A program made the translations under genes and the position numbers. From Cymbidium sinense (lineage: Eukaryota; Streptophyta; Magnoliopsida; Asparagales; Orchidaceae), in contig CM038221.1 in the NCBI GenBank assembly GCA_021442155.1, positions 148,109,601-148,173,600 on the forward strand: 64,000 nt of DNA. The letters run 5' to 3'. The notes under the pieces were generated by a model that did no database searches, was not told the origin of the DNA, and saw nothing but the letters and a program-made list of their open reading frames with translations. Position 1 is the stretch's first letter, and every line of letters begins with the position of its first letter. Below are positions 9,053 to 61,739 of this stretch, piece by piece.

Positions 9053-9179
9053 TAGATTAATCGATTCAATTGTTCAAGATATCATCACTCTTTAATATAT
9101 AGGCGGTGATCTTTCCAAAAAGATCTTTTCAAAAAATGTGATTACTGGGATATCTTGAGTTTGCAATGATTCAGTCATA

Positions 9180-31299: not shown

Positions 31300-31993
31300 A
31301 ATCCTCTTGGCCCATTATCTCCTTGGGCTCTATACAATAAATGGAAAAGGGAGGTGGAAGAGAAACTTAGCTGGGTTGAATGGTCACTAGATTTGATCAA
31401 GATTCAGGATAGATTTAACTTAAATCTAGCCAATGATAATCTCTAAAGCCAGTTTAGCATGGAAAAATCTAGGAATGCAGTTGATAGGCAGAGTCACATA
31501 ATTTAGGCAAATTGAGGCACGTACGAAGTGGAAGTGAAGGTAGCAGAAAATTTGAGATTGAAGGATGGGATTTCGCTAGCTGCCTATGTCAGCTGGAGAT
31601 AGGATGTCATGAGATTTGGAGCTGCCATAGTGAGGATGAGATTTTCCGCTTCGACTTCTCGTGGAGTTGCCAGGTTTTCGTCTAGAGAAAGGAAGCGGAG
31701 AGGTAGGATGGCGTAGGATTTGAACGGGGAGGAGAGAGTTCTGTGAGAGAAGGCCAAAGAGGAAATTAGATCGCTCAGCTAGGCAGTGCGTGCAACTGAT
31801 CCACTTGCGAGGGACGAGACACGAGCTCACATGGGCTTCTTGGCTCGTGCGACTAGGAGGAAGGAATGGATGAGAGGGAGTTTGATGGCCTTCCTCATCC
31901 AAAGGAAAATGAGAGAGGGGGAGATCAAAGGAGTTCATTTCAATGAGAAAGAGGAAGAGGAGGCTGGTTTTCATCCATTTTCCTTGCATGTGT
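31300..31993 (-). other. GC-richer island, third of three, interrupted by the giant element
   Basis: The composition shift resembles 15601-16360 and 21180-21990; the minus strand is CT-rich and 5'-UTR-like. The 137-codon minus-strand stretch (31576-31989) is Ser/Pro-rich without a domain and is not called. The island ends abruptly at the LTR terminus at 31994, which suggests the giant element inserted into it. Confidence 0.4.
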
Positions 31994-33767
31994 TGGTTGA
32001 AAAATTCCTATAAGGGAGTCACCTTCAAATCTATGTGGAGAAATGAAAGAGGTAACACCTATATAAAAATTCATCTTGGTAAGATGCCACGTAGATCCGT
32101 AGATGTACTTATTCAGGTGATCGAAAATATCATTAAGGAAATAGTGTACTATCTTGAGAGATAGAAATCACTACCCTTTAATAGAACCAATCACCTCAAT
32201 AAGGACTCCTAAGGATGATGGGTCTGCATATGTACCAAAGATTCTTCCCCTACTTTACATGAGAAAGTAAAGCAAGGTTTATTTTAAACCGAGTTCATTA
32301 AGTTCCCTACAGGGGCAAGTCCACATAGTTAATTACATCCTAAGGGACGGGATCCCTTAGGAAAACTCTCGATTAAGGTAAATGATTGTTGTCTCTGAAG
32401 ATTTTAATAAGAAGGACTATCAATCGATTGGTTTATGTTTGAAGATCAAATAGGATTGATCAAAAGATGGAGTTATTATCGAAGCCAAAATGGAAGATAA
32501 GTAGGAGATTCCCATGATGCTAGGAAACCTAGTGAGCATCTCAGACTATCCTATAGTTGGGCTTTACATTTTAGAAATTGATTTAGTTTGTTTGAGTTGT
32601 ATTTTCATTAGAAATTTAGGACTTAAGATTTCTTAACACAAGATTAAGGAAATTCCTAAGAGGTGAGGAATTATGCTTATGGCCCACAAAAGGGAGAAGT
32701 AACCTCATAACCTAAATCTAGAGAGCTTCAACGAGGGCCAGAAGCTCAACCTAAATCTAAGGAAAAAAATGAGTAATTAGTTTGCCTCCACAAGAGAGGA
32801 CAAACCACCCGACAGCTTAGACTTATGACCGCCTAGGAGTGGCCGCCAACTAACTCCTCCTATGATTTTATATACATGTAGGCAAGCCTTTATGCTTATG
32901 CAAGATAGCTAGGTTGTTATTTATTAGAAAGAGACTAAGTCCTTAAGTTCACTCCCTAAAGAGACTAGATCATGTAAAAGGCATGCTTCAAATGACCTAA
33001 ATCTAATGCAATTCAAATTTTATTTTATTTCATTTTGGACAATTATTTTGACTCAGGCTAATAGGATTTTTATGAATAATGCATGAGAAATTAGATTATT
33101 GGCCAAAATCGAGAAGGAGAGGAGGTGAGTTTCCACCACTACTCTCTCAAAGGTCAAGGAAGTTCTCGGCAAAGGTGGAAGCCCTCCAATCAAGAGTGAA
33201 ATAAGATGCATTTGTGCATGATATTATAAAGAAATGCTCATCCAGTTAAGGGGTTGCTAATTCTTTTATCTTGATTTTAAACCTAAGCTTTAGGTGAGGT
33301 TATGAGTTGTTTAATTTTAATTTGAATTATTAAGTTGGGTAAAAGATTTATTTTTCCTAAAGAGTCTAATCCACATCCAGCCATACATAAAGTAAGGAAG
33401 AAACTAGAAAATCATGCCACTTAATGCAAAAGCTAAACAAATCATCAATCAATTTATAAAGCCAAATCACAAAAGAAATAAATGGCTGTGGTGCACCACA
33501 CAAACCCAAAAATATCAAACATGGGTAGCAGAGCTCTATCCTTATACAACCTGAATTATAAATGAATTAAATTACAATTAAGCAAAGGAATTCATTGTTA
33601 TGGGGGTCTTCAAGCTTTATTCTTCTTTCTTCTTCTTTTCTTCTTTTCATCTTTGGTTCCTCCTTTGGATGGTTGGAAGGTGGATGATCAAAGGCTTCAC
33701 ATGGTGCATAAGATAGGATCTTATGACCAATGGTCATCCTAATCCCACAACAAATCATTCCAAAATC

Positions 33768-33776
33768 CTAGTTATA
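33768..33776 (-). promoter_or_regulatory. Mutated TATA box of the 3' LTR
   Basis: The minus strand reads TATAACTAG, where the other two LTR copies have TATAAATAG (46869-46877 minus, 54086-54094 plus). Confidence 0.5.
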
Positions 33777-36700
33777 CAAATTTTTACATGAAAAGGAATA
33801 GTGAAAATCTAACTAACACTTGTAAAATAAAGGTTAACTAAAACACACCACATAAATCCTAAGCATGTATATTAGACTTATCACTCACACATGGGTGACT
33901 AAGTCCACCTGGCCTATGGATTATGCTTAGGGGTATAAAGCACCTGCAAGCAAAAGCATTTATATTTTTATTTATGATAGCAAATCCCTCAGAAAAGAAT
34001 GGTTAGACTAAGAACGTTATACCATTCATTCTACAAGCATGCACCCAAATATCCAATCTAAAATATATATCACAAAACAAAATATAACATCAAACCATGC
34101 ACCGACCTAACCTACGGCTAGAAGTGGTGACTTAGGCTTATGTGTGTGCTTTGAAGGTTTGGGTGGTATGCTTAGTTATGACTTTAGGTTTAAATTTTTT
34201 AAGTGTGAAGAACATGTTCAACTTAGAGGAGGGTTTCATTTAAGTTATTTAAGTGTTTTGGGTTGGTTTTATTTCATGTTTTTATTTAGTTTAAGTGAAA
34301 CCTAATTAATTAATTATGATGAAGAGGGAAAGAGAAGATAACTTCTTCCTTCCCTAACCTTAAGTAATTTTCTAAAGTAGGTTCATGTTTTAGTTTCATT
34401 TTAGGTGAATGTTTTGATTACATCTTTTAATCAATCCTAAGTTTAGATAAACTCTAAACAAACCTATTGAAAAGAAAGGCATTTTAAGATTAAATAAAAT
34501 GAACCAAAATTCACATAACACATATTACTTCATTTCTTTCCAAACATATATAACATGCATATGGATGGACCCTAAGCATATCTATACATGCAAATGAGAG
34601 TATTTAACACACTTTATGATACATGCTAAGTAATCCATTTAAGGAAATTTAGAAGTTGAATATGCATGATTTTTTTAAGTAGAAAGAGTGTTCCTTATCT
34701 AAATTTTCACATACATAGTAGGAAAGGCATAAGTGAGTACAGGCATCATGTGAGGTGTAAGGTACAAGACCTACTTAGGCTACTTAAAGTTTCACAACCT
34801 TGGTTGTCCAGACTAATATACCACTTTCCTTAAATACAAAACATGCATATAAAGAAATGAAATAGAAAAGGGATATGCAAAAGTTGTTTAATGGATTCAT
34901 TTTATCTTATGCAATTTATGTATGCAAGTAGTAACCCTTCTTAAATGATAGCATAGGGATGAATAGGGTATAAAATTAAGTTGGGTTCTTTTCAAATGAA
35001 CCCTACATCTTACCAACTCATATTCAAAACTATATAAGAAAGAAAGGAAAACTACTAAGCATGACTTTATAATCTATCACATGCAAGATTATAATTAAAG
35101 TATAAGTAGCACACTTTCAGGTATTTGATTTATGTACTTTGAAAATAATTTGGATTTAGTAGTGATAACACCACTCATATTTCTACTTTAACCAACACAT
35201 GCAAATTTGACATAAAGTAAACAATTTTTTAAAATTTGAATTCCAAAACTATGAATGCATGAAATCACATGGCATGCAGTTTAACATGTTGAGGAAAGAT
35301 CCAAAGCAATGAAAGCATGTAAACAAACTCACTTTACTTAAATCCTAAAGACATTCTTATAGAATAAAAAAATTTAGAATAAATCAAAGTGAATTTCAAA
35401 ATGATTTTTGTTTAGTTTGAAGTTTGATTTAATTTTGAAAAGGTGAGATTAGTTTACTGTTCCTAACCCATTCTCATATGTGTTTGATATTTTTGTTTAA
35501 GATAATTAGATCTATTTTTATGCATTGATTAGGTTAAGCTATGAATTAAGTAGCTTAATTAACCCTTACCTACACTTTAGAAGAATTAACCAAATAATTA
35601 TGAGCCAATGAGATGACATAAACCCACAAGAATTTAAATTGTAAATGCACCCAATAAAAATGCCTAATGCAATTATTTGGCTCACAAAAAGTTAATTAAG
35701 CTAAGGGTTTAGCTTAAGTAATTTCAAAACACCCTTTCACATGTGAATTGGATTTTGATTTCCTTTAAATGAACATATTAACAAAGCATCTACCCAAGGT
35801 AGATTAATTAAGTTCAAAAACTTTTTTTAGAATTTTAGAAATTGATTAAGGGTATAATGATTTAACCCTTAATTAGGAGATTAAGGAGAAGAGGGGGTTT
35901 AGGGAATAGCTTAAGGTAAATGCCCCAAAATTATTCCATAAATCTTCTATTTACTTGATCTCACCTTAATAAACCCTAATCATAGGGTAAATCCACTAAT
36001 CCTACTCTAATTATGTTTAATTACATGAGAAGGGTAATTAAGAAAACCATATGCAATTACTCTAATCAATCCTTCAATAAATCCCAAGAAAATTAGGAGA
36101 GGTAGAGGTCATCCCTTAAAACTTACCTAAAAAAATTGGGATTAATCAGAGGCCTAATCAAAGAGTAATTAGCAAAATACACTTTCCAATAAAGCCTAAA
36201 TTCAAAGAAAATCATAATCAAAACTCATCAAAATTAATTTTAAAATGTTCTAGGTTTAATTATCTATCCATGTTTTATTTCATATTTTTTGAATTTTTTT
36301 TATGAAGAGTTATACATTTTGAAGATATATGGATTAACAAAAAATTAGTTAAGCATTTTAAATAATCCCTAAATCTTTTCACGGCGCGACATGGCAGCAT
36401 TAGCGCTTTACAGTTAACATGAGGAGATAACTTAAGTTGTCACCTCACAAACGGCAGTGGCGGCGCACACGCTTATATTCTCTGTCATCCGATCAAAGAT
36501 CAAACGGTTAAGGATTCCCCCACATTTTATAAAGGATAAACAGATAACTAAATGTGTTAAATAATCTCAATCGTCCATCTAAAAAGGATGGATCAGATGA
36601 TCAAGTTCTTCCCTGACCAGAGACCATGATCAAGGGGAAGATCCAAGCTAGATCTAGCATAAAATCACACCAAATTCAACCCACACCATCTAGAGATATA

Positions 36701-37589
36701 GAGCGCCAAATCCAACGATCAAAACTTGATAAGGTGAATATTTCTTTCACAAAGATCCACACCGCATTGAGTTTAGTGATTAAAAAATTTCATACCTTGC
36801 CAGAGGTGATCACCAATGCTCGAGATCGATGAGGTAGCTTCATCTGCTGGAGGCGAAGCCCTGTTGAAATTCGTAGGCCTTGGGATTGAGTGGCTTGCTC
36901 TATGGACCAACACCACTTGAAGATCCTTGCGGCTTTAATCCAATTGCTCCTCTCCTGGGAACTCCAATGGAAGCTTGAGTGAGCTATTCCAAGAAGTGTG
37001 GGAGAATTGATGGTTTTAGTGTGGAAGAAATTCAAGATTGATTGAGCTCTATTTTTTGCATGCAAACCGAGAAATGGGGAATTCAAATCCTCTCTAAGAA
37101 ACTTGGGAGTGCTCTCTGATGGTTACTCTGGGTTCCTTAGCTTCAATGAGAGGTGTATGAAAAAAGTGAATTAGTATATCTCCCCTTGAAGGATGGATCA
37201 ATGTCCATGCCATTTTGATCCAATTGATGAGATTGGGAGGCTATTTGATCTATTTGAGTGTGCACATGGTGGTTTGATCCAAGGAGTGGATTGCCAACCT
37301 CCATGTGCTTAATTTGAGCTTAAGAGGAGTTTGAAAATTCAATTTTAAGCTAGGGTTTGGTCTAGGACCAAATGGGCTGACCAAACCATTGGTTGGGTGC
37401 ACCACTCATCACTAAGTCTTGAGCTTTGGAAAGCCTCAAGTGATTGTGAAGAGGGTATGATACCCATGGGTTAGGCCAAAATTGTTCTATGGCCTAGGGT
37501 GATGGTCATTTTGCTATTTTTTTTACTTTGGACATGGGTATGTGGAGAAACAAGGTTTGGCCAAGTTTCATTGATTTGGAATCCATTTG

Positions 37590-38475
37590 GTTTATGTTGA
37601 CCCATTTAGGTCAAAATGGGTCAACTTGGAAGTTGACCAATTGGTCAATTGGTCAAACTGGTTGGGTCAAGTTCATATGACCATTTGAAATGTTTGGCTT
37701 TGGTTTGATTCAATTTGGTATATATTTGGTTTTGGCTCATATGACTTCATTTAGGTCAAATGGGTCAAGTTGACCTATTTGACCCATTTGACCTATTTGG
37801 GGTAAAGTAGGTTTGGGTTTGGTTAGTCATATGAGTGGATTGATATCTTTGTTTCCAATCAATTTTGGTTAAGTTCAATTTGGCTCAACATGACCCCTTT
37901 CTCATGTTGGGTAAGGTCACTTGTCTAGTCCAATTAACTTTGGTCAAGTTCCACAAGTGATTTGGAATGGACTTGACCCATTGGTTTTAATCAATTTGGC
38001 TTAAATCAAGTTTAACACATTTTGACCCTTTAGGTCAAAATAATCAACTTGGGTCAAGTGGGCCAATTGGGCTAGGTTAGCTCAAATGTTGGCTTGGTCA
38101 AGTTCAAACATAGGTCATGAGTGAACTTAGATCAATGGTTTCAATCAATTTGGCCTATGGTGAATTTGCTATGTTAGGTTTCATTTAGGTTAAGTGTTGA
38201 CTTGGTCAACCCTTAGGTTTGACTTGGTTTGACCCAATTTGATTGATTGATCAACCCATGATGATTGTTGATCATGATGAGAGGATATATGAGTTTGGTT
38301 CAATCCAATTTGGATAGGATCAAGTTGGCTATAAGGGTACTTTAGGTCACTTTGGGTCAAGTGAGCCTAAGTGGGTCAAATGGCTTGGTTAAAACTTGAT
38401 TTGAAGTTGGTTGATCTTGTATATGGACTCATGATTGAAATATGAATCCATTTACAAGTGGTTTGAGGTCAAATG
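37590..38475. promoter_or_regulatory. W-box-dense block in LTR U3 (left copy)
   Basis: I counted about 23 occurrences of TTGACC or GGTCAA in about 890 bp, where well under one would be expected by chance. TTGACC/T is the core of the W-box bound by WRKY transcription factors. The words sit in a degenerate ATGGGTCAA-like minisatellite. The same block, inverted, is at 49330-50240. Confidence 0.6.
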
Positions 38476-39489
38476 GATTTTGATCCATTTCAAAATTTCA
38501 TATTCAAAGGAAGAATATGAACGAGTCTTGGGTTTGATTTTTGATTTGGGTTTTGATTGAATGATTGAAGTTTGGATTTATATATGAGCTCATGATTGTA
38601 GGTTGATTGAACCATGAGAGTAACTCAAGTGTTTGCCTTGATTTGAAAGTGATTTGACTAAGTTCAAGATTTTGACTTGAAAGGCTTAGATTTGATTTTG
38701 ATTTGATCTGAGTTTGATTTTTGAAATTAGTTTTGATTGTTTGAATTTATATTTTATTTATATATGTGAATATAAATGAGAATATAAATGGATCATGAGA
38801 AAATTTTCAGGATTTGAAGTGGTTTAATCATGATTTAGGTTAAATCCATTAAAGGAAATTTAAAGGATTTAAGAGAATTTTTAATTTGAAATTTAATTTT
38901 TGAATTGGATTTGATTGATGAATATTGATATTTATTTTATATGTGAGAATATAAATGAGAATATAAATAAGTTTTGAGAAAATCCCATGAATTTGAATGA
39001 GTTTGATCATGATTTAGGTTAAATCCATTAATGGGAATTTAAAGGATTTAAAGGAATTTTAAATTAGAATTTAATTTTTGCCTTGGATTTAAATGATTTA
39101 TATTTATATTTCATTTATTTATGAGAATATAAATAAGTTTTGAGAAAATCCTAAGAGTTTGAGTAGGTTTGATGAAGATTTATGTTAAATCCATTAAAGG
39201 GAATTTAAAGGATATACGGAGAATTTCATGAATTGATTTTGAATTTGGAATTTGATTTGATGGGTTTGAATTTATATTTCATTTAAAATATATAAATGAG
39301 GATATAAATGGAACATGAGAAAATCTCAAAGATTTGAATAGGTTTGAATCATGATTTTGAATAAGTCCTTAGCTTAAGGACAAATAAAAATTTAAAATTT
39401 TTGATGATTTGATCATGGATTTCAATCATGGAATTCTATCATGAAATTGATTTGAGTTTGGAGAAAGTCAAATATAATTGATTTGGAGT

Positions 39490-42400
39490 TTGACTTGAAA
39501 GAGTTCTATTAGAAAAAGAAATAGAAAAGCTAATTGAAATGGAAGAAGTTGGTGGAAGAATCTAAAATGGAGGTCGGACATGCTGGTGGTAAGAGGTTAT
39601 CCACACATGTTGCTACTACTACTACTATTGTTGAGTCATTTCTAGAGTTGGCAACTTGCAAACTTCCTTGGTGTTGGAGGTTTGAGTGACTGCACTGCAA
39701 GGAAAGCTTCTTGATCTTAATTATTTTCTTAGAGGTTTTAGACAAAGAAATGTCCCAACCTTCTTTGGTTTTGGTAAGATCACTTGTATCCCCAAGGATT
39801 ACCCTAATGGAACTAGAAGGTTGTTTGACAAGGTATTCCTTCGGGATAACTACAACACCAATTTTGAAACTGTGTTCAAGCTAGTCCTTGAATGTGAAGC
39901 AATCCTCCAAAATGTGGCCTTATGGGGTAAGGGAAAAAGTTTGGATCATGACTTTTGCCTACTTTCTCGGTCTCTAGATTAAATGAAAATTAGGTTTCTT
40001 TAAGAGATTCTTAAAGATTTTCTGATTACTCCCTCTTAAAAGAATAAGGTTTGTTTAACTTATCTAAAAGAGTAGTGGACCATAGCTACAATGGATATGC
40101 ATGTCATCATTAGCGTATGGTATGGTCTGGCCGTGGAAGCTGGGGTGAGGCCTAGGGCGCCTCTGTTGGAAAAGGAGGTGGAGTCACTAAGGTCATGTTC
40201 TCTCTGATGATCTCTAGCTGGCTACCCATGTCAACGTTACTGCCTCCCGGTTTCTTCTCATAAACCTTTTTGGATTTCTACGTCCGATCTAGAAAAGGCA
40301 AGCTTTGGCCTCTCCTTGTAGACTAGTCACCTTGTTGATTAGCTTCAAATATCTTTATGGTGAAGCCCTTAAGCATGAAGGCAAGCCATGGATATTCTTT
40401 AAGAGAATCTCAATGACATGTATTCGCATATATGGTTCACACTTCATACTCAAGTTATGCCATCAGAGAATATAATCAATAAGTGACTCACCAGAGTGCT
40501 GTTAGGCTACAATGAGATCACCTATAACAACTCTTTGCTGAGCTCCAACAAATCTCTTGATGAAAAGTTGCTCTAACTCAACAAATGTCTTTACTGAACC
40601 ATTGGGTAGTTCAACATACCAATCAAAAGCAATACTCGCTAGGCTAATGACAAAGTGTCTAAAGAGTAAAGCATGTGCCACCGCAACAAATAACAACCAA
40701 GTGAGCTATATGCCTCATTCCCACGCCATCAAAGAAGGAAGGAGGCACAAAACCCTTGGGATCTTGGATAGCATCAATTCCTCCGGTAGGGTCTACCCTT
40801 TGAACGATGATCCTCCTGCTTGAGCCAAAGCTTCCTTTACCTGTTGCTCAACCATGGATTTTAGATCTTTTCTTGTATGGAGGTACTTTCCACTACTTTC
40901 CTATACAGGCTAGTGCTACCTTGCTCAACGAGAGGTAGAGTCTTAACTGGGTCTAAGACATGCACTAACTGAGGCAGACTGACATCGACTGTAATAGGAT
41001 GAACTGAGGGGCTTATTTCTGAAGCACTGACACTGCTACTAACAAGTCCTGTAACTGACGTGCCATCCTATCAATCTGCTCGTCCTTCTGCCTTAATTGA
41101 ATTCAGAGGTGTTGGGCTGATTTTACGGTGTCCTCTTGATCAACCTCATCACCTTCCATGTTGCTCCCTAAGAAGAGATCCTCTAATATCGACCATGCAT
41201 ACTCGAGCTGAATCCCCCAATCAAGTCATCTTCGTTGGGATCGAAGTTGACTCTCGCTTCATCGGACCAGGCGTATCCTAAGATCTCCTCTTTCTCCATA
41301 AAATAGTGTGCAACTATCTTATCTAAGGATCGATCTAACTCGATAGGTACAAATATTTGGGCTACCTGGTGTGATCATTATCATGCACCGGAGGCACCAC
41401 TCCTATCATGGGGAGTCAATCTGTGGTTGTACTCATTAAGAATGATACTCGACCCGGCCGTAATAGGGTAACAATCCTAGGATGATCCTCTACCACCGCT
41501 ACAACCGAAGCCATCTAGAATATCTTATAATTGTCACCATCTCTGCATCCGGTTGTGTGGGTGGAGTTGGTGAAAGAATGACCACGATGCTCCAGGATCG
41601 TCACTTCTTTCGCACCACCACTAGGCGAAGGTCGAGGAGAGCTCCTACCATAATGGGTGGTGGAGGAGTAGATTTGGTCATAGGATCACCAACGGGAATA
41701 ATTTTCCTAGATGCGGCCTTCATGGCCTTAGATAGAATGGGAGATCCTGAAACCTGCATTGGCGATGGCAGACGAGGGGTAGAGTGGTGGGGTGGAGACA
41801 CCACCGACTCTCTGTATATAGGAACTTCCCTCCTGTGGTGGCTGGTCCCTGTGAAAAGAATACTATCAATATGGTGATGTGCGTGAGTCGGAAAATCAAC
41901 CAAAGCGAAGACCGTGATGAACCTCCATCACTCTACTAGTAATGTGATGTATGGGCCTCACAGGCCTCTCTCTAATGGATCTACCTCCCTCAGGGAATAG
42001 ATCAAAAGATTGAATTGGGTAGGACTCGAGCAGATGCTCCACCTAGCAGAATAGATCGGAGGTTGGTGTCCACCTCTTACTCCTAAAATGTCGAAGTGCA
42101 CCATTTGAGGAGGTGATGGATCCTCCCGGCATCCTCTGTATCGAGAGAGGATGAAACTAGTTTTGTGTAACCAGTGGTAAAGTGATCATGGGAGACTCAT
42201 CCATGGTTGATCTAGCTGCTGCCTCTAGCTCCCTGGCTATCCGAGTGTGGAACCGTTTGATCATACGGTTCTTGTTCCTATATTGGGTATGAGTAGGATA
42301 GAGGAGTGTGAGCTAGACCTATACTCAAACGTGGGGGAGGCAAGCCTTGAAACCAAAGGAGCCTTACCCTTGGAGATGGTAGGGTGCTAGCCCGCACTGG

Positions 42401-42700
42401 GGCAACATGGGCAACTCTAGGACAAATTGCAATTAGAACAGGTATTGCCAGTACTACTGGAACTGTAATAGCTAAAGTTTGTGGTACTGCCACAGCTTTC
42501 CTCTTCAATGAGAAGACATCCGAATTAGAAGGTAAATCTGCTGACCTTTCCACACCTTGTTCTGAATGTGGTGAGGGAATGCCTCACAAGTGATCTGGCC
42601 CCCCTCCTTGGCCAAAGTGGATCAAGTTGGTATGGTCTAGATGAGGGAAGTCACCTTGATCTAAAGCTAGATCCATACCATGGGGGAAAGTAAAGACAAA
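39490..42700 (-). pseudogene. Gag of the giant element, left copy
   Basis: The core of the retrotransposon gag domain is at 40502-40696 (64 open codons, minus): LLFRHFVISLASIAFDWYVE, then LPNGSVKTFVELEQLFIKRF and VGAQQRVVIGDLIVA. This matches LLF..F..SL.G.A..WY..L..GSI.TW..LE..F...F. Continuing left, HSGESLIDYIL and SMKCEP follow in shifted frames. The zinc-knuckle region lies at about 39690-40000, where the minus strand has SHDPNF followed by frameshifted knuckle sequence. The N-terminal third (41600-42600) is Pro/Ser/His-rich. Multiple frameshifts leave it non-functional. The homologous right copy is 58140-60840. Confidence 0.75.
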
Positions 42701-45124
42701 TTTTTTGAGAACTAGCCATTTGCACAACTATAGTAAACTGACACTAAACTGCACTACACTGATTGAAAAGAATCTACAATGAGAAATAAACTTGTATCAG
42801 TTTTTTGTCTCCATAGATTTTGAATTTTGAATTTCAAAAATTTGAACCCACATCCAACAACTTGGAAGTGTTAAGTGGGGTTCAAATGAATTTGGAAAGA
42901 TTGATTGAAAGAGGAATTTGAATATGAATCCAAATTTTAACAAATTTGAGTATGTTGAAATATGGATTCAAAATTTTTGATAGGATGCTTCCATAAGTTC
43001 ATTGTTGTTTTGAATTTGAATTTGAGGACCCTTTCCTTTAACAAATTTAGGTATGTTAAAGTAAGGTCAAATTGGTTTTTTTTTTTGTTTGAATGTTTTT
43101 AGAATTTTACTTAGCAAATTTAGGTATGCTAGGCAAAGTAAAAGTGATTATTTCTTTTTGTGAATTTTTTTTTGTTTTGATTTTTTTGGAAAATTTGAAC
43201 TTCATACTTAGAAAATTTAGGTATGCTAAGTGAAGAACCCAAGTGTATTTTGTTTAATTTTTGAAAATAGGATTCTTAGCAAATTTAGGTATGCTAAGAA
43301 AATCCTAAGTGTTTCATTTGTATTTGGAATGTTTTGATTTTTGAAAAGGGTAGGATCCTTAGCAAATTTGGTATGCTAAGGAGATCCTAAGTGTTTTTTT
43401 TTTTTTTTTTTTTTTTTGTTTTGAGGTGATTGAAAGTGGAGATTCAACTTTAGCAAATTTGGTATGCTAAAGGAAGTCCCACTTAGTTTTATGAAATAAA
43501 ATTTTACTTAGCAAATTTGAGTATGCTAAATGAAATTCCAAATGGTGTGTTTAAAATTTGATTTCATTTTGGTTTTGAAAATGGAAACTTCACCCTTAGC
43601 AAATTTGGTATGCTAATGGAAGAAGTTCAAAAGGTGTTTAAAATTTTTGGATTTTGGAAACTTTACTTAGCAAATTTGAATATGTAGGTGGAGTCCAAAA
43701 TATATTTTGAAATTTTTTGGATTTTGGATTTGGAAACTTTATTTAATAAATTCGGGTATGTTAAATGAAGTTCCAAATACGTTTGAAAATTTTGAATTTC
43801 TTTTGATTTGGAGACTTCACTTAACAAATTTGGGTATGTTAAGTGAGGTTCCAAAATGTGCTTTAAAAAAAATTTAAATATGATTGTTGATTTTGGATTT
43901 TGGATTTGGAGATTTCACTTAGCAAATTTGATTATGCTAAAAAAAATTCCAAAATGTGTTCTAAAAATTTTTAAATTTTCGGATTTGGAGACTTTACTTA
44001 ACAAATTTGGGTATGTTAAGTGAGGTTCCAAAATATGTTTTGAAATTTTTTTGAATTTTGGATTTTGATACTTCACTTAACAAATTTGGGTATGCTAAAT
44101 GAAGTTCCAAATATTGCTTGAAAATTTTGAAATATGATTGTTGATTTTGATTTTAGATTTGGAAACTTCACTTAGCAAATTTGAGTATGCTAAGTAAGGT
44201 TCCAAATGTAAGTTTAAAAAAAATTGAAATATGACTGTTGAAGTTTTAATTTTTGAAAAAGGGGACCTCCATTCTACAAATTTAGGTATGTAGAATGGAG
44301 ATCAATTTTATTTTTAAAATGTGATTTTTTGTGTGTGATTGTTGCTTTTTGAAAGAGATGAACTCCAACTTAAAACATATGTGAAATATGTTGAAGTAGG
44401 ATTTCCTAAATGATATTTTATTTTTACTTGAATGAAATCTTCATTTAATAAACTTGAGTATATTAAATGAAGATGTTCATGTGCTTTTTGAAAATTTTAA
44501 TTTTGTTTACAAATGAACTTTTTATTCAATAAGTGTGAGTATATTGAATAGAAAATTCATGTGCTTTTTTTTATGATTATGATTGTGATTTTTTGAAAAG
44601 GATGATTCTTTATTTTATTTTGAAAATGAAATCTTCATCAAAGTGAATTGAAAGAAGATGTTCATTTGTGCTTTTGAAAATGTTGTTTAATTTTATTTTG
44701 AAAATCCTACATGTAACAATTATGGGAATTGTTAAATGAGGGTGACAAAATTTTATGGAAAATATTTTATTAAGTGCATTTTTTGAAAAAGTGCTTTTGA
44801 AAAGCAAAGTTCTTTATGGAAGATTTATTATTTTAGGATGAACCTTTCCTTATCATGAAAATGGTAAGGAGGAAGTCTTTAAGATGCTTTATTTTTATTT
44901 AGATCTTTTCACCAATGGGGTTTTAAGACCAACCAAGAATGCAGTCCTAAAACCTAATGATATTTGCTAACTCAACTCAAGAATGAAATGAGTTAAGTGC
45001 CAACAGAAAGAAGGATAGTCTTGGATTCATACCAAAGTACAAATCCACTATCGATACTCAAAGACAATGATCATTTACCAAAGATGGAGAGAGGAACCAT
45101 CAAATGAGTAGCCAAAAAATCTAT
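42700..45124 (-). repeat. Hairpin-array leader of the giant element, left copy
   Basis: This lies between the 5' LTR and gag. It holds more than 20 stem-loops at 80-90 bp spacing, at about 42842-42884, 42926-42969, 43027-43068, 43105-43143, 43200-43236, 43270-43305, 43353-43387, 43447-43475, 43500-43538, 43585-43629, 43660-43694, 43730-43778, 43807-43855, 43904-43952, 43983-44032, 44064-44108, 44158-44206, 44264-44303, 44358-44406, 44438-44473, 44512-44559, 44704-44745 and 44835-44873. The typical core is CTTAGCA / TGCTAAG around a loop AAATTTRGGTA, with outer pairs such as GGATC/GATCC or TTGGAA/TTCCAA. Stems vary with compensation (TTAACA/TGTTAA, TTCTACA/TGTAGAA, TTTAATA/TATTAAA, TTCAATA/TATTGAA). 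A T23-type homopolymer lies at about 43397-43419. No open frame crosses it. Confidence 0.9.
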
Positions 45125-48100
45125 TGGTTGAAAAATTCCTATAAGGGAGTTGCCTTCAAATCTATGGGGAGAAATGAAAGAGGCAACACCTATATAAAAA
45201 TTCATCTTGGTAAGATGCCACGCAGATCCACAGATGTACTTATTCAGGTGATCGGATTCATCATCAAGGAAATAGTGTACTATCTCAAGAGATAGAAATC
45301 ACTACCCTTTAATGGAACCAATCACCTCAAAAAGAACTCCTAAGGACGATGGGTTTGCATGTGAGATTCTTCCCTACTTTATATGGGAAAAGCAGGTTTA
45401 TTTTAAATTGGGTTCGTTAAGTTCTACAGGGAAAGCCCCATAGTTAATTACATCCTAAAGGAGGATCCTTAGGAAAACTCTTGATTAAGGTAAATGATCA
45501 TTGTCTCAAGATTTCAAGAAGGACTATCAATCGATTTTGTTTGAAGATCAAATGAGATTGATCAAAAGAGGAGTTATTATCAAGCCAAAATGAAGATAAG
45601 TAGGAGATGCCCATGATGCTATGAAACCTAGTGAGCATTTGACTATCCTATAGGCTTTACATTTTAGAAATTGATTTAGTTTATTTAAGTTACATTTTTT
45701 ATTAGAAATTTAGGACTTAAGATTCCTTAACATAAGATTAAGAAATGCCTAAGAGGTGAGGAGTTATGCTTGTGGCCCACAAAGGGGAGAAGCAACCTCA
45801 GAACCTAAATCTAGGGAGCTTCGGCGAGGGCCGGAAGCACAGCCCAAATCTAAGGAAAAATTGGATAATTTTGGTTTGCCACCATAAGAGAGGACAAACC
45901 ACCGACAACTTAGACTTACAATTGCCTAGGGGTGGCCTCCAACTAACTCCTCCAATGATTTTAAATACATGTACGCAAGTCTTTATGCTTATGCAAGATA
46001 GCTAGGGTGTTATTTATTAGAAAGAGACTAAGTCATTAAACTCACTCCTTAAATAGACTAGATCATGTAAAAAGCATGCTTCAAATGACCTAAATCTAAT
46101 GCAATTCAAATTTCATTTTATTTCATTTTGGATAATTATTTTGACTTAGGATAATAGGATTTTTATGACTAATGCATGAGAAATTAGATTATTGGCCAAA
46201 ATCAGCGAGAAGGGAGGAGGTGAGTTTTCACCACGGCTCTCAAAAGTCAAGCCGAGTTCTCTGGAAAAGGTGAAAGCCCTCCAATTAAGAGTGAAATAAG
46301 ATACATTTGTGCATGATATTATAAAGAAATGCTCATCTAGCTAAGGGGTTGCTAATTCTTTTATCTTGATTTTAAACCTAAGCTTTATGTGAGGTTATGA
46401 GTTATTTAATTTTAATTTGAATTGTTAAGTTGGGTAAAAGATTTATTTTTTTCTAAAGAGCCTAATCTAAATCCAAACCACATATAAAGCAAGAAAGAAA
46501 CTAGAAAAATCATGCCACTTAATGTAAAAGCTAAATAAATCAATAATCAATTTATAAAACTAATCGTAAAAAGAATAAATGGTCATTGTGGTCAGGCACC
46601 ACCACACAAACCCAAAAATATCAAACATGGGTAGCCGAGCTCTACCGTTATACAAACTAGATTATAAATGAATTAAATTACAATTAAGAAAATGAATTCA
46701 TTGTTATGGGAGTCTTCAAGCTTTATTCTTCTTTCTTTCTTTTTCTTTTCTTCTTTGGTTCCTCCTTTGAATGGTTGGAAGGTGGATGCTCCAAGGCTTA
46801 ACATGGTGCATAAGATAGGATCTTATGATCAATGTTCATCCTAATCCATAACAAATCATTTTAAAATCCTATTTATACAAATTTTTACATGAAAAGGAAA
46901 AGTGGAAATCTAACTAACACCTACAAAATAAAGGTTAGCTAAAATACACTACACAAATCCCAAGTATGTATATTGGACTTATCACCCACACATGGGTGAC
47001 TAAGTCCACTTAGCCTATGGAATATGCTTAGGGGTATAAAGCACCTACAAGCAAAAGCATTTATATTTTTATCTATAATAGTACTCCTTAAGCACAATCC
47101 CCTATAGAAAAGAATGGTTAGATTAAGAACGTCCTACCATTCATTCTACAAGCATACACCCTAACATCCAGTCTAAAACATATATCACAAAATAAAACAT
47201 AACATCAAACCATGCATCGACCTAACCTAAGGCTAGAAGTGGTGACTTAAGCTAATATGTGTGTTTTGAAGGTTTCTGTGGTATGCTCAGTTATGACTTT
47301 AGGTTTAAATTTTCTAAGTGTGAAGAACATGTTCAACTTAGAGGAGGATTTCATTAAGTTGTTTAAGTGTTTTGGGTTGGTTTTATTTCATGTTTTAATT
47401 TGGTTTAAGTGAAACCTACAATTAATTACTAAGTTATGAAGAGAGGGAAAGAGAAGATAACTTCTCTTTCCTTCCCTAACCTTAAGTAATTTTCTAAAGT
47501 AGGTTCATGTTTTAGTTTCATTTTAGGTGAATGTTTTGATTACATCTTTTAATCAATCCTAAGTTTAGATAAACTCTAAACAAACCTATTCAAAAAGAAA
47601 GACATTTTAAGATTAAATAAAATGAACCAAAATTCACATAACACATATTACTTCATTTCTTTCCCCAACATATATAACATGCATGTGGATGGACCCTAAG
47701 CATATCTATACTTGCAAATGAGAGTATTTAACACACTTTATGATACATGCTAAGTAATTCATTTAAGGAAATTTAGGAGTTGAATATACATGATTTTTCT
47801 TAAGTAGAAGTGTTCCTTATCTAAATTTTCACATACATACATGAAAGTAGGAAAGGCATAAGTGAGTCCAGTGTAAGGTACAAGACCTACTTAAGGCTAC
47901 TTAAAGCCTCGCAACCTCGGGGTTGTCCAGACTAATATACCACTTTCCTTAAATATGAATATGCATATAAAAGAAATGAAATAGAAAAGGAATATGCAAC
48001 AGTTGTTTAATGGATTCATTTTATCTTATGCAATTTATGTATGCAAGTATAGGTAACCCTTCTTAAATGATAACATAGGGATGAATAGGGTATAGAATTA

Positions 48101-48930
48101 AGTAAGTGTTGGGTTCTTTTCAAATGAACCCTACATCTTACCAACTCCTTTTCAAAACTATGCTAACATAAGAAAGAAAGGAAAAACTACACTAAGCATG
48201 ACTTTATAATCTATCACATGCAAGCTTATAATTAAAGTATAAGTAGCACACTTTCAGATTTAGTATTTGATTTATGTATTTTAAAAATAATTTGGATTTA
48301 GTAGTGATAATAGCCACTCATATTTCTACTTTAGCCAACACATGTAAATTTGACATAAAGTAAACAATTTCATTTTAAAATTTGAATTCCAAAACTATGA
48401 ATGCATGAAATCACTTGGCATGCAATTTAACATGTTGAGGAAAGATCCAAAGCAATGAAAGCATGTAAACAAAATCACTTTACTTAAATCCTAAAGACAT
48501 TCTTATAGAATAAGAAAATTTAGAATAAATCAAAGTGAATTTCAAAATGATTTTTGTTTACTTTGAAGTTTGATATAATTTTGAAAAGGTGAGATAAGTT
48601 TGCTATTCATAACCCATTTTGATATGTGTTTGATACTTTTGTTTAATTTTCATATAATTAGATCCATTTTTATGCATTGATTAGTTTAAGGTATGAATTA
48701 AGTAGCTTAATTAACCCTTACCTACACCACCTTAGAAGAATTAACTAAATAATTATGAGCTAGATGACATAAAAACCCACAAGGAATTTAAATTTGTAAT
48801 GCACCTAATAATGAAAAGGCCTAATGCAATTTGGCTCACAATTAAAGTTAATTAAGCTAAGGGGTTTAGCTTAAGTAATTTCAAAACACCCTTCACACAT
48901 GTGAATTGGATTTTGATTTCCTTAAATAAA
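45125..48930 (-). repeat. 5' LTR of the giant element, left copy (cut by gap)
   Basis: A direct repeat of 31994-35770, in the same order and with the same motifs, bordered on the left (element 3' side) by the leader. Its TATA box is intact (TATAAATAG, complement of 46869-46877), and a CTT/GAA-rich tract (46725-46760) follows in the element sense. The U3 portion beyond 48930 is lost in the gap. It differs from the 3' LTR by numerous small indels, so the insertion is old or the consensus has indel errors. Confidence 0.85.
46869..46877 (-). promoter_or_regulatory. TATA box, 5' LTR of left giant element
   Basis: TATAAATAG on the minus strand, about 120 bp upstream (element sense) of the GAA-rich tract and AATAAA signal, at the same LTR position as 54086-54094. 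Confidence 0.6.
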
Positions 48931-49030
48931 NNNNNNNNNNNNNNNNNNNNNNNNNNNNNNNNNNNNNNNNNNNNNNNNNNNNNNNNNNNNNNNNNNNNNN
49001 NNNNNNNNNNNNNNNNNNNNNNNNNNNNNN
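48931..49030. other. Assembly gap (100 N)
   Basis: A run of 100 undetermined bases separates two oppositely oriented 5' LTRs. The round size suggests a placeholder of unknown true length. The missing U3 parts of both LTRs should lie here if both are complete. Confidence 0.99.
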
Positions 49031-49329
49031 TGAAATATAACAAACCAATTTCAAAAAATCAAACTCATCAAATCAAAATCAAATATAAGCCTTTCAAGTA
49101 AAAATCTTGAACTTAGCCAAATCACTTTCAAATCAAGCCAAACTCTTGATTTTCTCTCATGGTTCAATCAATCTTACAATCATGAGCTCATATATAAATC
49201 CAAACTTCAATCATTCAATCAAAACCCAAAACCAAATCAAAATCAAACTCCAAGACCCCTTCATATTCTTCTTCCTTTGAATTTTCAAATGGATCAAACC
49301 ATTTGACTTCAAACCACTTGTAAATGGAT

Positions 49330-50240
49330 TTATATTTCAATCATGAGTCCATATACAAGATCAACTTCAAATCAAGCTTTGACCAAGCCATTTGACCCAC
49401 TTAGGCTCACTTGACCCAAAGTGACCTAAAGTACCTTATGAGCCAACTTTGATCCTAACCAAATTGGATTGAACCAAACTCATATATCCTCTCATCATGA
49501 TCAACAATCATGGGATGATCAATCAATCAAATTGGGTCAAACCAAGTCAAACCTAAGGGTTGACCAAGTCAACACTTAACCTAAAATGAAACCTAACATA
49601 GCCAAATTCCAATAGGCCAAATTGATTGAAACCATTGATCTAAGTTCACTCATGACCTATGTTTGAACTTGACCAAGCCAACATTTGAGCCTAACCCAGC
49701 CCAATTGGCTCACTTGACTGTTGACCCATTTTGACCTAAAGGGTCAAAATGTGTCAAAACTTGATCTAAGCCAAATTGATTTGAACCAATGGGTCAAGTC
49801 CATTCCAAATCACTTGTGGAACTTGACCAAAGCCTCAATTGGCCAACTAGACCCAACCTAGCCCAATTGACCTTAGACCCAACATGACCCAAAGGGGTCA
49901 TGTTGAGCCAAAATTGAACTTAACCAAAATTGATTAACAAAGATATCAATCCACTCATATGACTAACCAAACCCAAACCTACCCTAGACCTACCTCAAAT
50001 TGGTCAAATGGGTCAAATAAGTCAACTTGACCCATTTGACCTAAATGAAGTCATATGAGCCAAAACCAAATATATACCAAATTGAATCAAACCAAAGCCA
50101 CCAAAACATTTCAAATGGTCATATGAACTTGACCCAACCCTTGGTTTGACCCAATTTGACCAATTGGTCAACTTGACCAAGTTGACCCATTTTGACCTAA
50201 ATGGGTCAACATGAGCCAAACCCTATCAAATGGATTCCAA
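49330..50240. promoter_or_regulatory. W-box-dense block in LTR U3 (right copy)
   Basis: The inverse of 37590-38475, with repeated TTGACC words such as those around 49550-49570, 49735-49760 and 50020-50210. It lies about 4 kb upstream of the TATA box, so it would be a distal element at most. Confidence 0.55.
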
Positions 50241-53200
50241 ATCCAATGAAACTTGGCCAAACCTAGTTTCTCCACCAAAACCCCAAAGTAAAAATAGCAA
50301 AAATGACCATCCTACCCCTAGTCCATAGAACAAATTTTGGCCTAACCCATGGGTAATTTGGTCATACCCTCTTCACAATCACTGAGGCATTCCTAAAAGC
50401 TCAAGGGGACTTAGTGATGAGTGGTGCACCCAACCTAATGGGTTTGTCAGCCCATTTGGTCCCTAGACCAAACCCACCCAGCTAAAATTGAATTTTCAAA
50501 CTCCCTTAAGCTCAAATTAAGGCACATGGGAGGTTCAATCCACTCTTGGATGAAATCACCATGTGCACACTCAAAATAGATCAAAAGCCTCCCAATCTCA
50601 TCAATTGATCAAAAATGGCATGGACATGTCGTCGATCCTTCAAGGGGAGATATACTCCCCTAATTCACTATTTTCATACACCCTCTCGATTGAAGCTAAG
50701 AACCAGAACATCATGAGAGCACTCCCAAGCTTCTTAGAGAGGATAAGAATTCCCCATTTCTCAGTTTTGCAAAGTGAAAAAATTAGGGAGCTCAATCCAA
50801 TCTTGAATTTCCTCCACACTGAAAACCACCTCAATTCCTCCTACACACTTCTTCTAAGGACCAATCCGAGCTCACTTAAGCTTCCATTGGAGTTCCCATA
50901 GCAAGGAGAGGAGCAATTGGATCAAAGTCATAAGGATCTTCAAGTGGTGTTGGTCCATAGAGAAAGCCACTCAATCCTAAGGCCTAGGAATTTCAACAGG
51001 GCTTCATCTTCACCATATGAAGCTACCTCATCGATTTCGAGCACCGATGATCACCTTCGGGGAGGTATGGAATTTTTCGATCACTAAACTCAATGTGGCG
51101 TGGAGCTTTATAAAAGGAATTTTCACCTCATCAAATTTTGACCATTGGATTTGCCGCTCTCTATCTCTAGATGGTGTGGGTTGAATTTGGTGTGATTCCA
51201 TGCTAGATCTAGCTTGGATCTTCCCCTTGGTCATGGACGGTCTCTGTTGATCAAGGGGAAGAACTTGGATCATCACAGTCATCCATCCGCACATTTTAGA
51301 TGGATAGCTGAGATTATTTAACACGTTTAGCTATCCGTTAATCCTTTATAAAACACGGGAGAATCTTTAGCCATCCGATCTTTGATCAGACGATAGAGAA
51401 TATAAGCGCGTGCACCATCGCCGCTATTTGTGAGGTGACAACTTAAGTTGTCCCCTTGTGTGATGCATGTAAAGCGCCAATCACCACACATCACGCCGGA
51501 ACCAAGGATTAGTTATTATTAAAAATGCTTAATTAATTTCTAGTAATCCATGGATCTTCAAAATGCATAACTCTTCATAGAAAATTAGAAAATATGAAAT
51601 AAAACCTATGGATAGATAATTAAACTTAGAACATTTTAAAATTAATTTTGATTTTTGAATTATGATTTTTTAATTTGGGTTTATTGAAAGTGTATTTGCT
51701 AATTACTCTTTGATTAAGCCTATAATTAATCCCAAATTACTTGGGTAAGTTGTAGGGGATGATCTCTACCTCCCCTAATTTTCTTGGAATTTATTAAAGG
51801 CTTGATTAAAGTAACTGCATATGGTTTCTTTAATTTTTCTTCTCATGTAATTAAATATAATTAGGGTATGATTAGTGGTTTACCCTATGATTAGGGTTGA
51901 TTAAGGTCATATCCAATAAGTAGAGGATTTATGGAATAATTTTGGGGCATTTCCCTAAAGTTATTCCCTAAACCCCTCTTCTCTCTCCTCTTAATTAAGG
52001 GTTAATTCAATTATCCCTTTAATCAATTTCTAAAAAATTCTAAAAAAGTTCCAAAACTTAATTAATCTACCTTGGGTAGATGCTTAGTGTAATAGCCTAA
52101 GTTCATTTAAGGAAATCAAAATCCAATTCACATGTGTGAAAGGGTGTTTTGAAATTACTTAAGCTAAACCCCTTAGCTTAATTAACTTTAATTGTGAGCC
52201 AAATTGCATTAGGCCTTTTCATTAGGTGCATTACAAATTTAAATTCTTGTGGGTTTTATGTCATCTCATTGGCTCATAATTATTTAGTTAATTCTTCTAA
52301 GGTGGTGTAAGGTTAATTGCTACTTAATTCATACCTTAAACTAATCAATGCATAAATGGATCTAATTATCTAAAATTAAACAAAATATCAAACACATATG
52401 AAATGGGTTAGAACAGCAAACTCATCTCACCTTTTCAAAATTATATCAAACTTCAAACTAAACAAAAATCATTTTGAAATTCACTTTGATTTATTCTAAA
52501 TTTTCTTATTCTATAATAATGTCTTTAGGATTTAAGTAAAGTGATTTTGTTTACATGCTTTCATTGCTTTGGATCTTTTCAACATGTTAAATTGTATGCC
52601 AAGTGATTTCATGCATTCATAGTTTTGAATTCAAATTTTAAAATGAAATTGTTTACTTTATGTCAAATTTGCATGTGTTGGCTAAAGTAGAAATATGATT
52701 TTATCACTACTAAATCCAAATTATTTTAAAATACATAAATCAAATACTAAATCAGAAACTGTGCTACTTATACTTTAATTATAAGCTTGCATGTGATAGA
52801 TTATAAAGTCATGCTTAGTAGTTTTTCCTTTCTTATGTTAGCATAGTTTTGAATTGGAGTTGGTAAGATGTAGGGTTCATTTGAAAAGAACCCAACACTT
52901 ACTTAATTCTATACCCTATTCATCCCTATGCTATCATTTAAGAAGGGTTACTATACTTGCATACATAAATTGCATAAGATAAAATGAATCCATTAAACAA
53001 CTTTTGCATATTCCTTTTCTATTTCATTTCTTTTATATGCATGTTCATATTTAAGGAAAGTGGTATATTAGTCTGGACAACCCCAAGGTTGTGAGGCTTT
53101 AAGTAGCCCTAAGTAGGTCTTGTACCTTACACCTCGTTAACAATACTATACTCACTTATGCCTTTCTACTTTCATGTATGTATGTGAAAATTTAGATAAG

Positions 53201-54085
53201 GAACACTCTTTCTACTTAAGAAAAATCATGCATATTCAACTTCTAAATTTTCTTAAATGAATTACTTAGCATGCATCATAAAGTGTGTTAAATACTCTCA
53301 TTTGCATGTATAGATATGCTTAGGGTCCATCCACATGCATGTATATATGTTGGGAAAGAAATGAAGTAATATGTGTTATGTGAATTTTGGTTCATTTTAT
53401 TTAATCTTAAAATATCTTTCTTTTGAATAGGTTTGTTTAGAGTTTATCTAAACTTAGGATTGATTAAAAGATGTAATCAAAACATTCACCTAAAATGAAA
53501 CTAAAACATGAACCTCTTTAGAAAATTACTTGGTTAGGAAGGAAAGAGAAGTCTTCTCTTTCCTCTCTTCATAACTTAGTAATTAATTGTAGGTTTCACT
53601 TAAAACAAATTAAAAAAAGAAATAAAACCAACCCAAAACACTTAAACAACTTAATGAAATCCTCCTCTAAGTTGAACATGTTCTTCACACTTAGAAAATT
53701 TAAACCTAAAGTCATAACTGAGCATACCACAAACCTTCAAAGCACACATATATTTAAGTCACCACTTCTAGCCTTAGTTATGTGCATGGTTTGATGTTAT
53801 GTTTTATTTTGTGATATATGTTTTATGATGTTAGGGTATGCTTGTAGAATGAATGGTAGGATGTCTTATAACCATTCTTTCTTGGGATTGTGCTTAAGGG
53901 TGCTATTATAAATAAAAATATAAATGCTTTTGCTTGTGTGCTTTATCCCTAAGCATAATCCATAGGACTTAGTCACCCATGTGTGGGTGATAAGTCCAAT
54001 ATACATGCTTGGATTTGTGGTGTGTTTTAGCTAACCTTTATTTTGTAGGTGTTAGTTAGATTTTTTCCTTTTCATGTAAAATTTG

Positions 54086-54094
54086 TATAAATAG
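54086..54094 (+). promoter_or_regulatory. TATA box of the right giant LTR
   Basis: TATAAATAG, followed by a GA-rich transcribed segment and AATAAA at 54241. It is at the same place as the TATA of the left 5' LTR. Confidence 0.65.
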
Positions 54095-54193
54095 ATTTTG
54101 GAATGATTTGTTAAGATTAGATGAACATTGGTCATAAGATCCTATCTTATGCACCATGTGAAGCCTTGGAGCATCCACCTTCAACCATTCAAA

Positions 54194-54246
54194 GGAGGAA
54201 CCAAAGAAGAAAAGAAGAAGAAGAAAGAAGAAAGAAGAAGAATAAA
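54194..54246 (+). terminator. GAA-rich R segment with AATAAA polyadenylation signal
   Basis: A run of GAAGAAGAAAGAA-type repeats ends in AATAAA at 54241-54246, about 150 bp after the TATA box, as expected for the R region of an LTR. The tract length differs between the three LTR copies (33608-33660, 46725-46760). Confidence 0.5.
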
Positions 54247-55818
54247 GCTTGAAGACCCCATAACAATGAATTCCTTTGCTTAATTGTAATTTAATTCATT
54301 TATAATCTGGGTTGTATAAGATCAGAGCTCAGCTACCCATGTTTAATATTTTTAGGTTTGTGTGGTGGTGCCCGACCACAACGACCATTTATTCTTTTTA
54401 CAATTAGCTTTATAAATTGATTGATGATTTATTTAGCTTTTGCATTAAGTGGCATGATTTTTCTAGTTTCTTTCTTGCTTTATATATGGCCTGGATGTGG
54501 ATTAGGCTCTTTAGGAAAAAATAAATCTTTTACCCAACTTAACAATTCAAATTAAAATTAAATAACTCATAACCTCACCTAAAGCTTAGTTTAAAATCAA
54601 GATAAAAGAATTAGCAACCCCTTAGCTAGATGAGCATTTCTTTATAATATCATGCACAAATGCATCTTATTTCACTCTTAATTGAGGGCTTCCACCTTTG
54701 CTAGAGAACTCAGCTTGACCTTTGAGAGCCATGGTGGAAACTCCTCCTCCCCTTCTCAATTTTGGCCAATCTAATTTCTCATGCATTAGTCATAAAAATC
54801 TTATTATCCTAAGTCAAAATAATTATCCAAAATGAAATAAAATAAAATTTGAATTGCATTAGATTTAGGTCATTTGAAGCATGCCTTTTACATGATCTAG
54901 TCTCTTTAGGGAGTGAGTTTAAGGACTTAGTCTCTTTCTAATAAATAATAACCTAGCTATCTTGCATAAGCATAAAGACTTGCCTACATGTATTTAAAAT
55001 CATAGGAAGAGTTAGTTGGCCACCCCTGGTTGTAAGTCCAAGTCGGTTTTGTCCTCTCATGGTGGCAAACCAATTACCCATTTTGCCTTAGATTTAGGTT
55101 GTGCTTCTGGCCCTCAAAGCTCCCTAGATTTAGGTTCTGAGGTTGCTTCTCCCTTTGTGGGCCATAAGAATAATTCCTCACCTCTTAGGAATTTCTTAAT
55201 CTTGTGTTAAGGAACCTTAAGTCCTAAATTTCTAATGAAAAATACAGCTCAAACAAACTAAATCAATTTCTAAAATGTAAAGCCCAACTATAGGATAGTC
55301 CGAATGCTCACTAGGTTTCTTAGCATCATGGGAATCTCCTATTTATCTTCCATTTTGGCTTCGATAATAACTCCTTCTTTTGATCAATCCTATTTGATCT
55401 TCAAACATAAACCAATCGATTGATAGTCCTTATTGAAATCTTCAGACAATGATCATTTACCTTAATCGAGAGTTTTCTGGGATCCCATCCTTTAGGTAAT
55501 TAACTATGGGGCTTGCCCTGTAGGGAACTTAATGAACCCGATTTAAAATAAACCCGCTTTACTTTCCCATGTAAAGTAGGGAAGAATCTCTAGTACATAT
55601 GCAAACCCATCATCCTTAGAGTTCTTTTGAGGTGATTGGTTCCATTAAAGGGTAGTGATTCTATCTCTGAGATAGTACACTATTTCCTTGATGATGTATC
55701 GATCCTGAATAAGTACATATGGATTCATGGCATCTTACCAAGATGAATTTTATATAGTGTTTCCCTTTCATTTCTCCCATATTTAAAGTGATATATAGAA
55801 TTTTTCACCACATTTTTT

Positions 55819-55833
55819 TGGCAACTCGCTTGG
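55819..55833 (+). other. Primer binding site of the giant element
   Basis: TGGCAACTCGCTTGG lies a few bases after the LTR end (ACCACA, then a T-run). It matches the PBS of the second gypsy family (complement of 12210-12228) except for one missing T and a few changes. In the left copy the same site (complement of about 45095-45115) is mutated to GGCTACTCATTTGATGG. Confidence 0.6.
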
Positions 55834-61700: not shown

Positions 61701-61739
61701 CCCAAGGGATCACCTTCAGATGAAGACCTTCTCTAGGGG

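Follow-up and report, generated by a model that had tools for sequence, protein, structure and literature searches.

The leader of a likely Ty3/gypsy retrotransposon in Cymbidium sinense carries a tandem array of about twenty predicted hairpins with a nearly constant loop and with stems that differ between units and yet pair. Judged from comparison of its copies, the hairpins look to be under selection in the active lineage. We suggest that the array may be a multivalent platform by which the genomic RNA binds a protein, most probably Gag during packaging, and give this reading a probability of roughly 0.4. The analysis started from a window of 64,000 nt, i.e. the whole stretch of DNA under study, and was extended to further copies from the same genome.

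Element architecture and hairpin units

Self-comparison reveals two inverted copies of one element (A and B) in the window, running in opposite directions around a run of 100 N. A direct repeat (31993-35773 versus 45124-48930, 89%) and an inverted repeat (31998-38733 versus 49042-55807, 87%) are read as the LTRs of these copies. Copy B shows the plus-strand order LTR, primer site, array, gag, protease-like piece and reverse transcriptase. Copy A is its mirror image, gag being the sole coding piece found for it in the window. The inverted juxtaposition may be an assembly or scaffolding join. The features are as follows.

31993-38733, minus: copy A, 3' LTR of about 6.7 kb (self-comparison)
40502-40702, minus: copy A, gag piece (PF03732, E 0.0041, below the curated cut-off)
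41103-42841, minus: copy A, remaining leader from array to gag (open reading frame list)
42842-44873, minus: copy A, hairpin array; the element sense is the minus strand
42919-42975, 43026-43076, 43102-43144, 43193-43246, 43272-43312, 43341-43395, minus: copy A, homologous units (nhmmer)
43430-43487, 43500-43548, 43575-43633, 43652-43701, 43724-43778, 43803-43860, minus: copy A, homologous units (nhmmer)
43900-43959, 43980-44037, 44058-44116, 44154-44207, 44259-44310, 44432-44472, minus: copy A, homologous units (nhmmer)
42842-42888 and about 44367-44400, minus: copy A, non-homologous hairpins
44510-44563, 44706-44742 and 44845-44872, minus: copy A, LTR-side hairpins with other loops
45097-45119, minus: copy A, decayed primer-binding-site region just past the LTR end
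45124-48930, minus: copy A, part of the 5' LTR, ending at the N run; the 89% direct repeat of 31993-35773
48931-49030, no strand: run of 100 N between copies A and B
49042-55807, plus: copy B, 5' LTR (self-comparison)
55814-55837, plus: copy B, decayed primer-binding-site region
56067-58069, plus: copy B, hairpin array, with bounds set by eye from homology to copy A
between 56473 and 57992, plus: copy B, 18 homologous units (sequence profile)
59941-60066, plus: copy B, gag piece (tblastn)
61727-61976, plus: copy B, protease-like pieces (tblastn; the query piece is without Pfam match)
62921-63682, plus: copy B, reverse-transcriptase pieces (tblastn)

The gag of copy A likely starts near 41150, as we infer. 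The primer-site region directly follows the LTR end. In copy L028 it reads TGGCGACTCCGCTGGGGA, which is the complement of the tRNA-Arg(ACG) 3' end, as encoded in this genome and extended by CCA; in the other copies compared it is altered to varying degrees relative to L028. The order gag, protease, reverse transcriptase, RNase H is present in copies L018 and L029, with the protease recognised by eye and tblastn only. PF03732 reaches E 9.5e-05 in L018, likewise just below the curated cut-off, and L029 matches RVT_1 below and RT_RNaseH above the respective cut-offs. Based on the tRNA-Arg primer and the matches to PF03732, RVT_1 (sub-cut-off) and RNase H, the element is likely a Ty3/gypsy retrotransposon. 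We tentatively place it in the Ogre/Tat group; Ogre elements use tRNA-Arg as primer (PMC2206039, in part). A protein search with the piece preceding the reverse transcriptase returned 22 candidates, none of which scored. No integrase could be identified in the reading frames of the single L029 copy inspected, which contains an N run. In L029 the RNase H (3753-4312) is followed within about 0.3 kb by this N run and then by LTR-like frames, and the copy may be deleted or non-autonomous.

A simple scan of 42842-44873 finds 27 hairpins with a score of at least 8, while 100 dinucleotide shuffles average 12.5 and reach 19 at most. The hairpin array reported by a first-pass annotation is thus real, with part of the 27 due to chance since shuffles also yield hairpins. 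Homologous units were defined by a sequence-only profile (nhmmer) that makes no use of structure. They number 18 in copy A (42919-44472), 405 in 22 copies and 731 in the 40 copies compared, which are the genome matches listed and include the two in the window. The claim of more than 20 stem-loops therefore holds if non-homologous hairpins are counted, but not for the 18 homologous units, and the period of 80-90 bp given before is slightly too regular, as the units of copy A follow each other at 69-107 bp and, in the final step, at 173 bp. Both the nearly constant loop and the stem variants named are present as described. The stem singled out as an example, CTCCATTCTACA/TGTAGAATGGAG, pairs perfectly in copy A, although across rows its fourth pair is most often an A-A mismatch (30 of 35 rows).

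The location between primer site and gag, i.e. in the leader, was also correctly recognised. The strand was not: the array had been read antisense to gag, whose pieces lie on the minus strand in copy A and on the plus strand in copy B, the latter together with the protease-like and reverse-transcriptase pieces. Hence the loop AAATTTRGGTA is the antisense version. The transcribed loop reads UACCYAAAUU with minor changes; it has 9 bases in some units and is near-constant with 9-10 bases overall. Copies contain 9 to 23 units (40 copies), the lowest counts occurring in seemingly cut-off arrays. Whole-unit copying, which the annotation had set against its own reading, does occur, but only within units 9-15, the part of the array that varies in unit number between copies. 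Rfam covariance models gave no match at E <= 1 in window positions 41200-45200. A 22-base hairpin pattern has no match in viral contigs; its one exact match in a marine bacterium is taken as chance.

Genome-wide there are 96,159 occurrences of the 14-base loop pattern, compared to 72 of the reversed pattern. As family-1 arrays were seen with at most 23 units, this would correspond to about 4,000 arrays or more, and we estimate several thousand copies of the element in the genome. By hand count, the first 100 of these places group into about 29 clusters within 6.8 Mb. Eight multi-hit clusters were taken by position, irrespective of similarity. Five are family 1, one (L054) represents a second family and two (L055 and L058) a third. 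Families 2 and 3 each share ~67% identity with family 1, and 66% with one another, and combine the same loop with other stems; the 40 matches listed for each have 92-100% identity to the 601-base query. The family-2 array adjoins an LTR end resembling that of family 1, and the score of its primer-site-like stretch only equals the best of 200 shuffles. In the flanks read for family 3 neither a primer site nor a family-1-like gag was found, and a primer site was not located inside the eight short position-chosen stretches. Several of the copies closest to the window lie on the same contig at 147.9-149.3 Mb, i.e. within 1.4 Mb, a clustering that suggests local duplication alongside retrotransposition.

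Pairing of the arms and its maintenance

The commonest pairs were tabulated for 18 unit classes and 13 stem pairs. Watson-Crick pairs fill 194 of 232 cells, versus 160 +/- 4.3 (maximum 176 of 2000) after permutation, a comparison that ignores relatedness. Measured against a tree-based null, the summed pairing excess is 1.51 (351 of 405 unit rows) versus 0.12 +/- 0.20 with a maximum of 0.62 of 200; weighting the null by column rates raises this maximum to 0.68 of 200. For the three families the excess amounts to 1.65 (244 of 320 rows) versus 0.08 +/- 0.20 (maximum 0.60 of 150), while controls with slid partners range from -0.24 to 0.28. No individual stem pair is clearly significant, the best E being about 0.05 in family 1 and 0.07 in the three families. 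Covariation above a phylogenetic null, a check proposed in the annotation, is consequently seen in aggregate and is weak for single pairs.

Swapping arms between units points the same way. Native hairpins of L018 have -16.8 kcal/mol versus -10.3 kcal/mol after swapping, and none of 5000 permutations matches the native state in any of five family-1 copies or of three copies from the other families. On average, family-1 copies lose ~5 to 7 kcal/mol by swapping, and those of the other families 4 to 6 kcal/mol. In only part of the diverged classes does the native arm make the best partner (6 of 10 in L018, 3 of 9 in L009, 4 of 9 in L010).

Matched arms may also arise without selection. In a passive palindromic minisatellite, slippage would multiply the units, and template switching between arms, either in the host or during reverse transcription, would keep them complementary. 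Template switching is described as creating and maintaining hairpins (PMC8794818, in part) and would explain long perfect stems as well as paired changes; switching during reverse transcription alone may account for matched arms. The variable unit number, the whole-unit duplications in units 9-15 and wobbles without strand bias fit such a process. However, the arms of the present array diverge once a copy is dead. Terminal branches are long in this star-like family, and for this reason most changes are taken as dead-copy decay, which provides a neutral yardstick. Among 467 of 470 units in 13 clear classes, out of 731 units, 4 double arm changes are found versus 6.0 expected, and paired doubles number 3 versus 2.9 expected. 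Thus arms mutate independently in dead copies, and the host keeps no arm matching at a detectable rate. In a first tree mapping 15 double changes (10 compensatory) had appeared on terminal branches, which turned out to be an artefact of unit assignment; assigning units by class gave 3 versus 3.5 expected and subsequently the 4 versus 6.0. Moreover, all 20 internal-branch changes at inner-stem pairs are one-sided (22 copies), which likewise speaks against arm copying.

Changes shared by at least four copies are taken to have arisen in active elements, and constraint was evaluated as variants in at least four copies (shared) over variants in at most two (private). This ratio is 28/331 in hairpins and 54/215 in spacers (odds ratio 0.34, p 7.7e-6), i.e. 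shared changes are about threefold rarer in hairpins, where p values serve as guides since shared variants may include recurrent mutation. The odds ratio is 0.34 (p 3.3e-4) without the search-query intervals, 0.36 (p 7e-4) without homopolymers, 0.39 (p 0.007) without both and 0.50 (p 0.001) with a three-copy cut. It falls below 1 in 9 of 10 evaluable intervals, the remaining one having 1.20. Under the strictest filter in 22 copies it is 0.74 (p 0.39). In the same number of copies the gag-side flank has as few shared variants as the hairpins, yet it has the most of them in the tree mapping. The depletion concerns loop and stem, and the loop is almost identical across three families, both of which are hard to reconcile with a passive minisatellite. 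All in all we consider this explanation unlikely. The many dead copies are of general use here: as a neutral yardstick, they allow selection on RNA structure to be told apart from passive copying of arms with no need for bench work.

Where both sides of a pair have changed between families 1 and 3, Watson-Crick pairing is retained in 8 or 10 cases, depending on the mapping, and lost in one; slid controls retain 1-3 pairs. One-sided differences comprise 10-15 of the type pair/wobble and 3-4 of the type pair/mismatch. In an earlier comparison, which used two family-3 copies and excluded 14 of 96 cells, pairing was kept 9 times and broken once. The matching of units between both families is supported by a collinear alignment, but the unit-order score of 181 is exceeded among 1000 shuffled orders, which average 140 and peak at 197.

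A separate pattern concerns the first C of CAAATTT in family-1 units. C to A changes occur at apparently the same stem C in 4-10 of ~30-40 copies and in several classes, as if this position were a mutation hot spot.

Strand of folding and possible functions

When whole arrays are folded, the sense strand forms 506 of 721 unit hairpins, compared with 302 of 721 for the antisense strand. The sense strand is favoured in 38 of 40 copies, with one copy equal and one opposite, and also in the eight position-chosen copies (88 of 139 versus 56 of 139). Spacers contain 52% A and 3.5% G in element sense, and the sense advantage survives shuffling of the spacer letters (2 copies, 10 shuffles). In these fold predictions the asymmetry of the whole array is a matter of spacer composition, for which selection for unstructured linkers and strand-biased editing or mutation are alternative sources. 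The sense RNA is predicted to fold as separate hairpins linked by nearly G-free, A-rich linkers. Isolated units are about equally stable in both strands (-15.65 antisense versus -15.15 sense; 200 versus 187 of 395), and their z values against shuffles are -4.7 in sense and -3.1 in antisense (74 units). A strand bias of wobbles is absent, with 12 G-T versus 11 A-C modal cells and 8 versus 7 between families. As selection on the RNA of one strand would favour one wobble type, this weakens the RNA-level reading, which is suggested by the leader position and the clean predicted sense fold.

The even wobbles would also suit symmetric sites in DNA, i.e. inverted half-sites bound by a host factor. 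Such dyads have a precedent in a repeated palindromic motif described in plant LTR retrotransposons (Sirevirus; PMC2829016, in part). A factor that reads sequence should however forbid the variation seen in the half-site letters, which differ by unit and family and yet pair. In addition, the most constant part is the asymmetric loop, and the array sits in the leader. Binding at the DNA level thus appears quite improbable.

As a platform on the genomic RNA, the array would be recognised by a protein that reads the constant loop, merely presented by the stem, and pairing would be selected at the RNA level. About twenty loop sites would give avidity and tolerate gain or loss of a few, and we propose this avidity as an explanation for the variable unit number. 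The weakest step is the identity of the reader. Gag would be the natural one because LTR elements keep packaging signals in the leader, and the array has the position of such a signal, in the leader and downstream of the primer site. The packaging role suggested in the annotation seems a good guess; its alternatives of ribosome shunting and a small-RNA source drew no support from the sequences compared. Retroviral nucleocapsid binds sites with exposed G in loops. The sense loop UACCYAAAUU lacks G and so counts against Gag. The complete proposal, in which a retroelement packages or condenses its genome via an approximately twenty-copy array of protein-binding hairpins that compensatory evolution preserves in at least three families within a 3.5-Gb genome, is somewhat doubtful. 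To our knowledge, little is known about how plant LTR retrotransposons select their own RNA for packaging into particles, and a repeated constant-loop hairpin would be a concrete, testable handle on this choice. If protein-binding, the array would be comparable to engineered hairpin arrays and represent a built-in multivalent RNA tag.

The nearest rival to the Gag reading is a structured leader serving another fate of the RNA such as export or retention of the unspliced genomic RNA, protection from decay or control of translation. It shares the argument from the array's location within the leader. A fraction of Ogre transcripts is spliced (PMC6317226, in part), and the structured leader of a plant pararetrovirus recruits export factors (PMC12786077, in part). 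The sense strand has fewer start codons than shuffles do (216 versus 371 in 22 copies), but ATG holds only rank 7-12 of 64 among depleted trinucleotides in 4 copies, and no clear scanning signature emerges; start-codon avoidance for scanning ribosomes was dismissed as weak on the same grounds. An RNA-fate role is, in our view, about as improbable as the passive minisatellite. Lastly, the hairpins could feed dicer enzymes as a source or decoy of host small RNAs. Hairpins of maize LTR elements have a higher small-RNA density, but maize Ty3 elements are without an obvious hairpin peak in the data given there (PMC10760457, in part). Being a small-RNA source would moreover hold no benefit for the element that could cause the observed depletion of shared changes, which makes this very improbable. 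Binding of a protein, most probably Gag, remains our preferred reading.

Comparison with described systems and further features of the window

A leader array of such form was not found in the literature searched, which was mostly outside subscription journals, and an earlier description is possible. The nearest described system is the Sirevirus motif (PMC2829016, in part), likewise a symmetric motif in high copy in non-coding parts of a plant LTR retrotransposon. According to that part of the source it resides in LTRs and near env, has a CGG-CCG core in nearly all cases and may provide sites for DNA-binding factors. It is described there without constant loop and covarying stems, whereas the array lies in the leader and has no CGG-CCG core. 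In Ty1, likewise, an LTR retrotransposon RNA bears stem-loops in its 5' leader, and these hairpins serve dimerization and packaging as tested by compensatory mutation (PMC5454406, in part). As far as described there, Ty1 has few unlike hairpins plus kissing loops and no tandem homologous array; the Cymbidium array, in contrast, is known from sequence alone.

Retroviral packaging leaders such as that of HIV-1 have a non-repetitive fold and sites with exposed G. The array differs by repeating one hairpin with a loop devoid of G. The likeness would lie in a leader RNA with many protein sites, as HIV-1 leader RNA binds about two dozen nucleocapsid copies (PMC7395439, in part). Ogre/Tat elements resemble the present one as Ty3/gypsy elements with large non-coding regions and, for Ogre, in using tRNA-Arg; the word 'hairpin' is absent from the main texts of PMC6317226 and PMC2206039. 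The array occupies the leader. Satellite-type repeats of Ogre/Tat are located in the 3' region.

The window contains a second tandem array at 4532-7404 with a period of 146 bp and ~20 units, in many of which GTGTACTCTC...GAGGGTACAC resembles a hairpin. At 8381-9073 on the minus strand, a related element has a protease-like frame (41% over 46 residues). One end of the LTR (37001-39000 and 49001-51000) is rich in TTGAC[CT] and its complement, with 13-16 per kb. These motifs resemble plant W-boxes.
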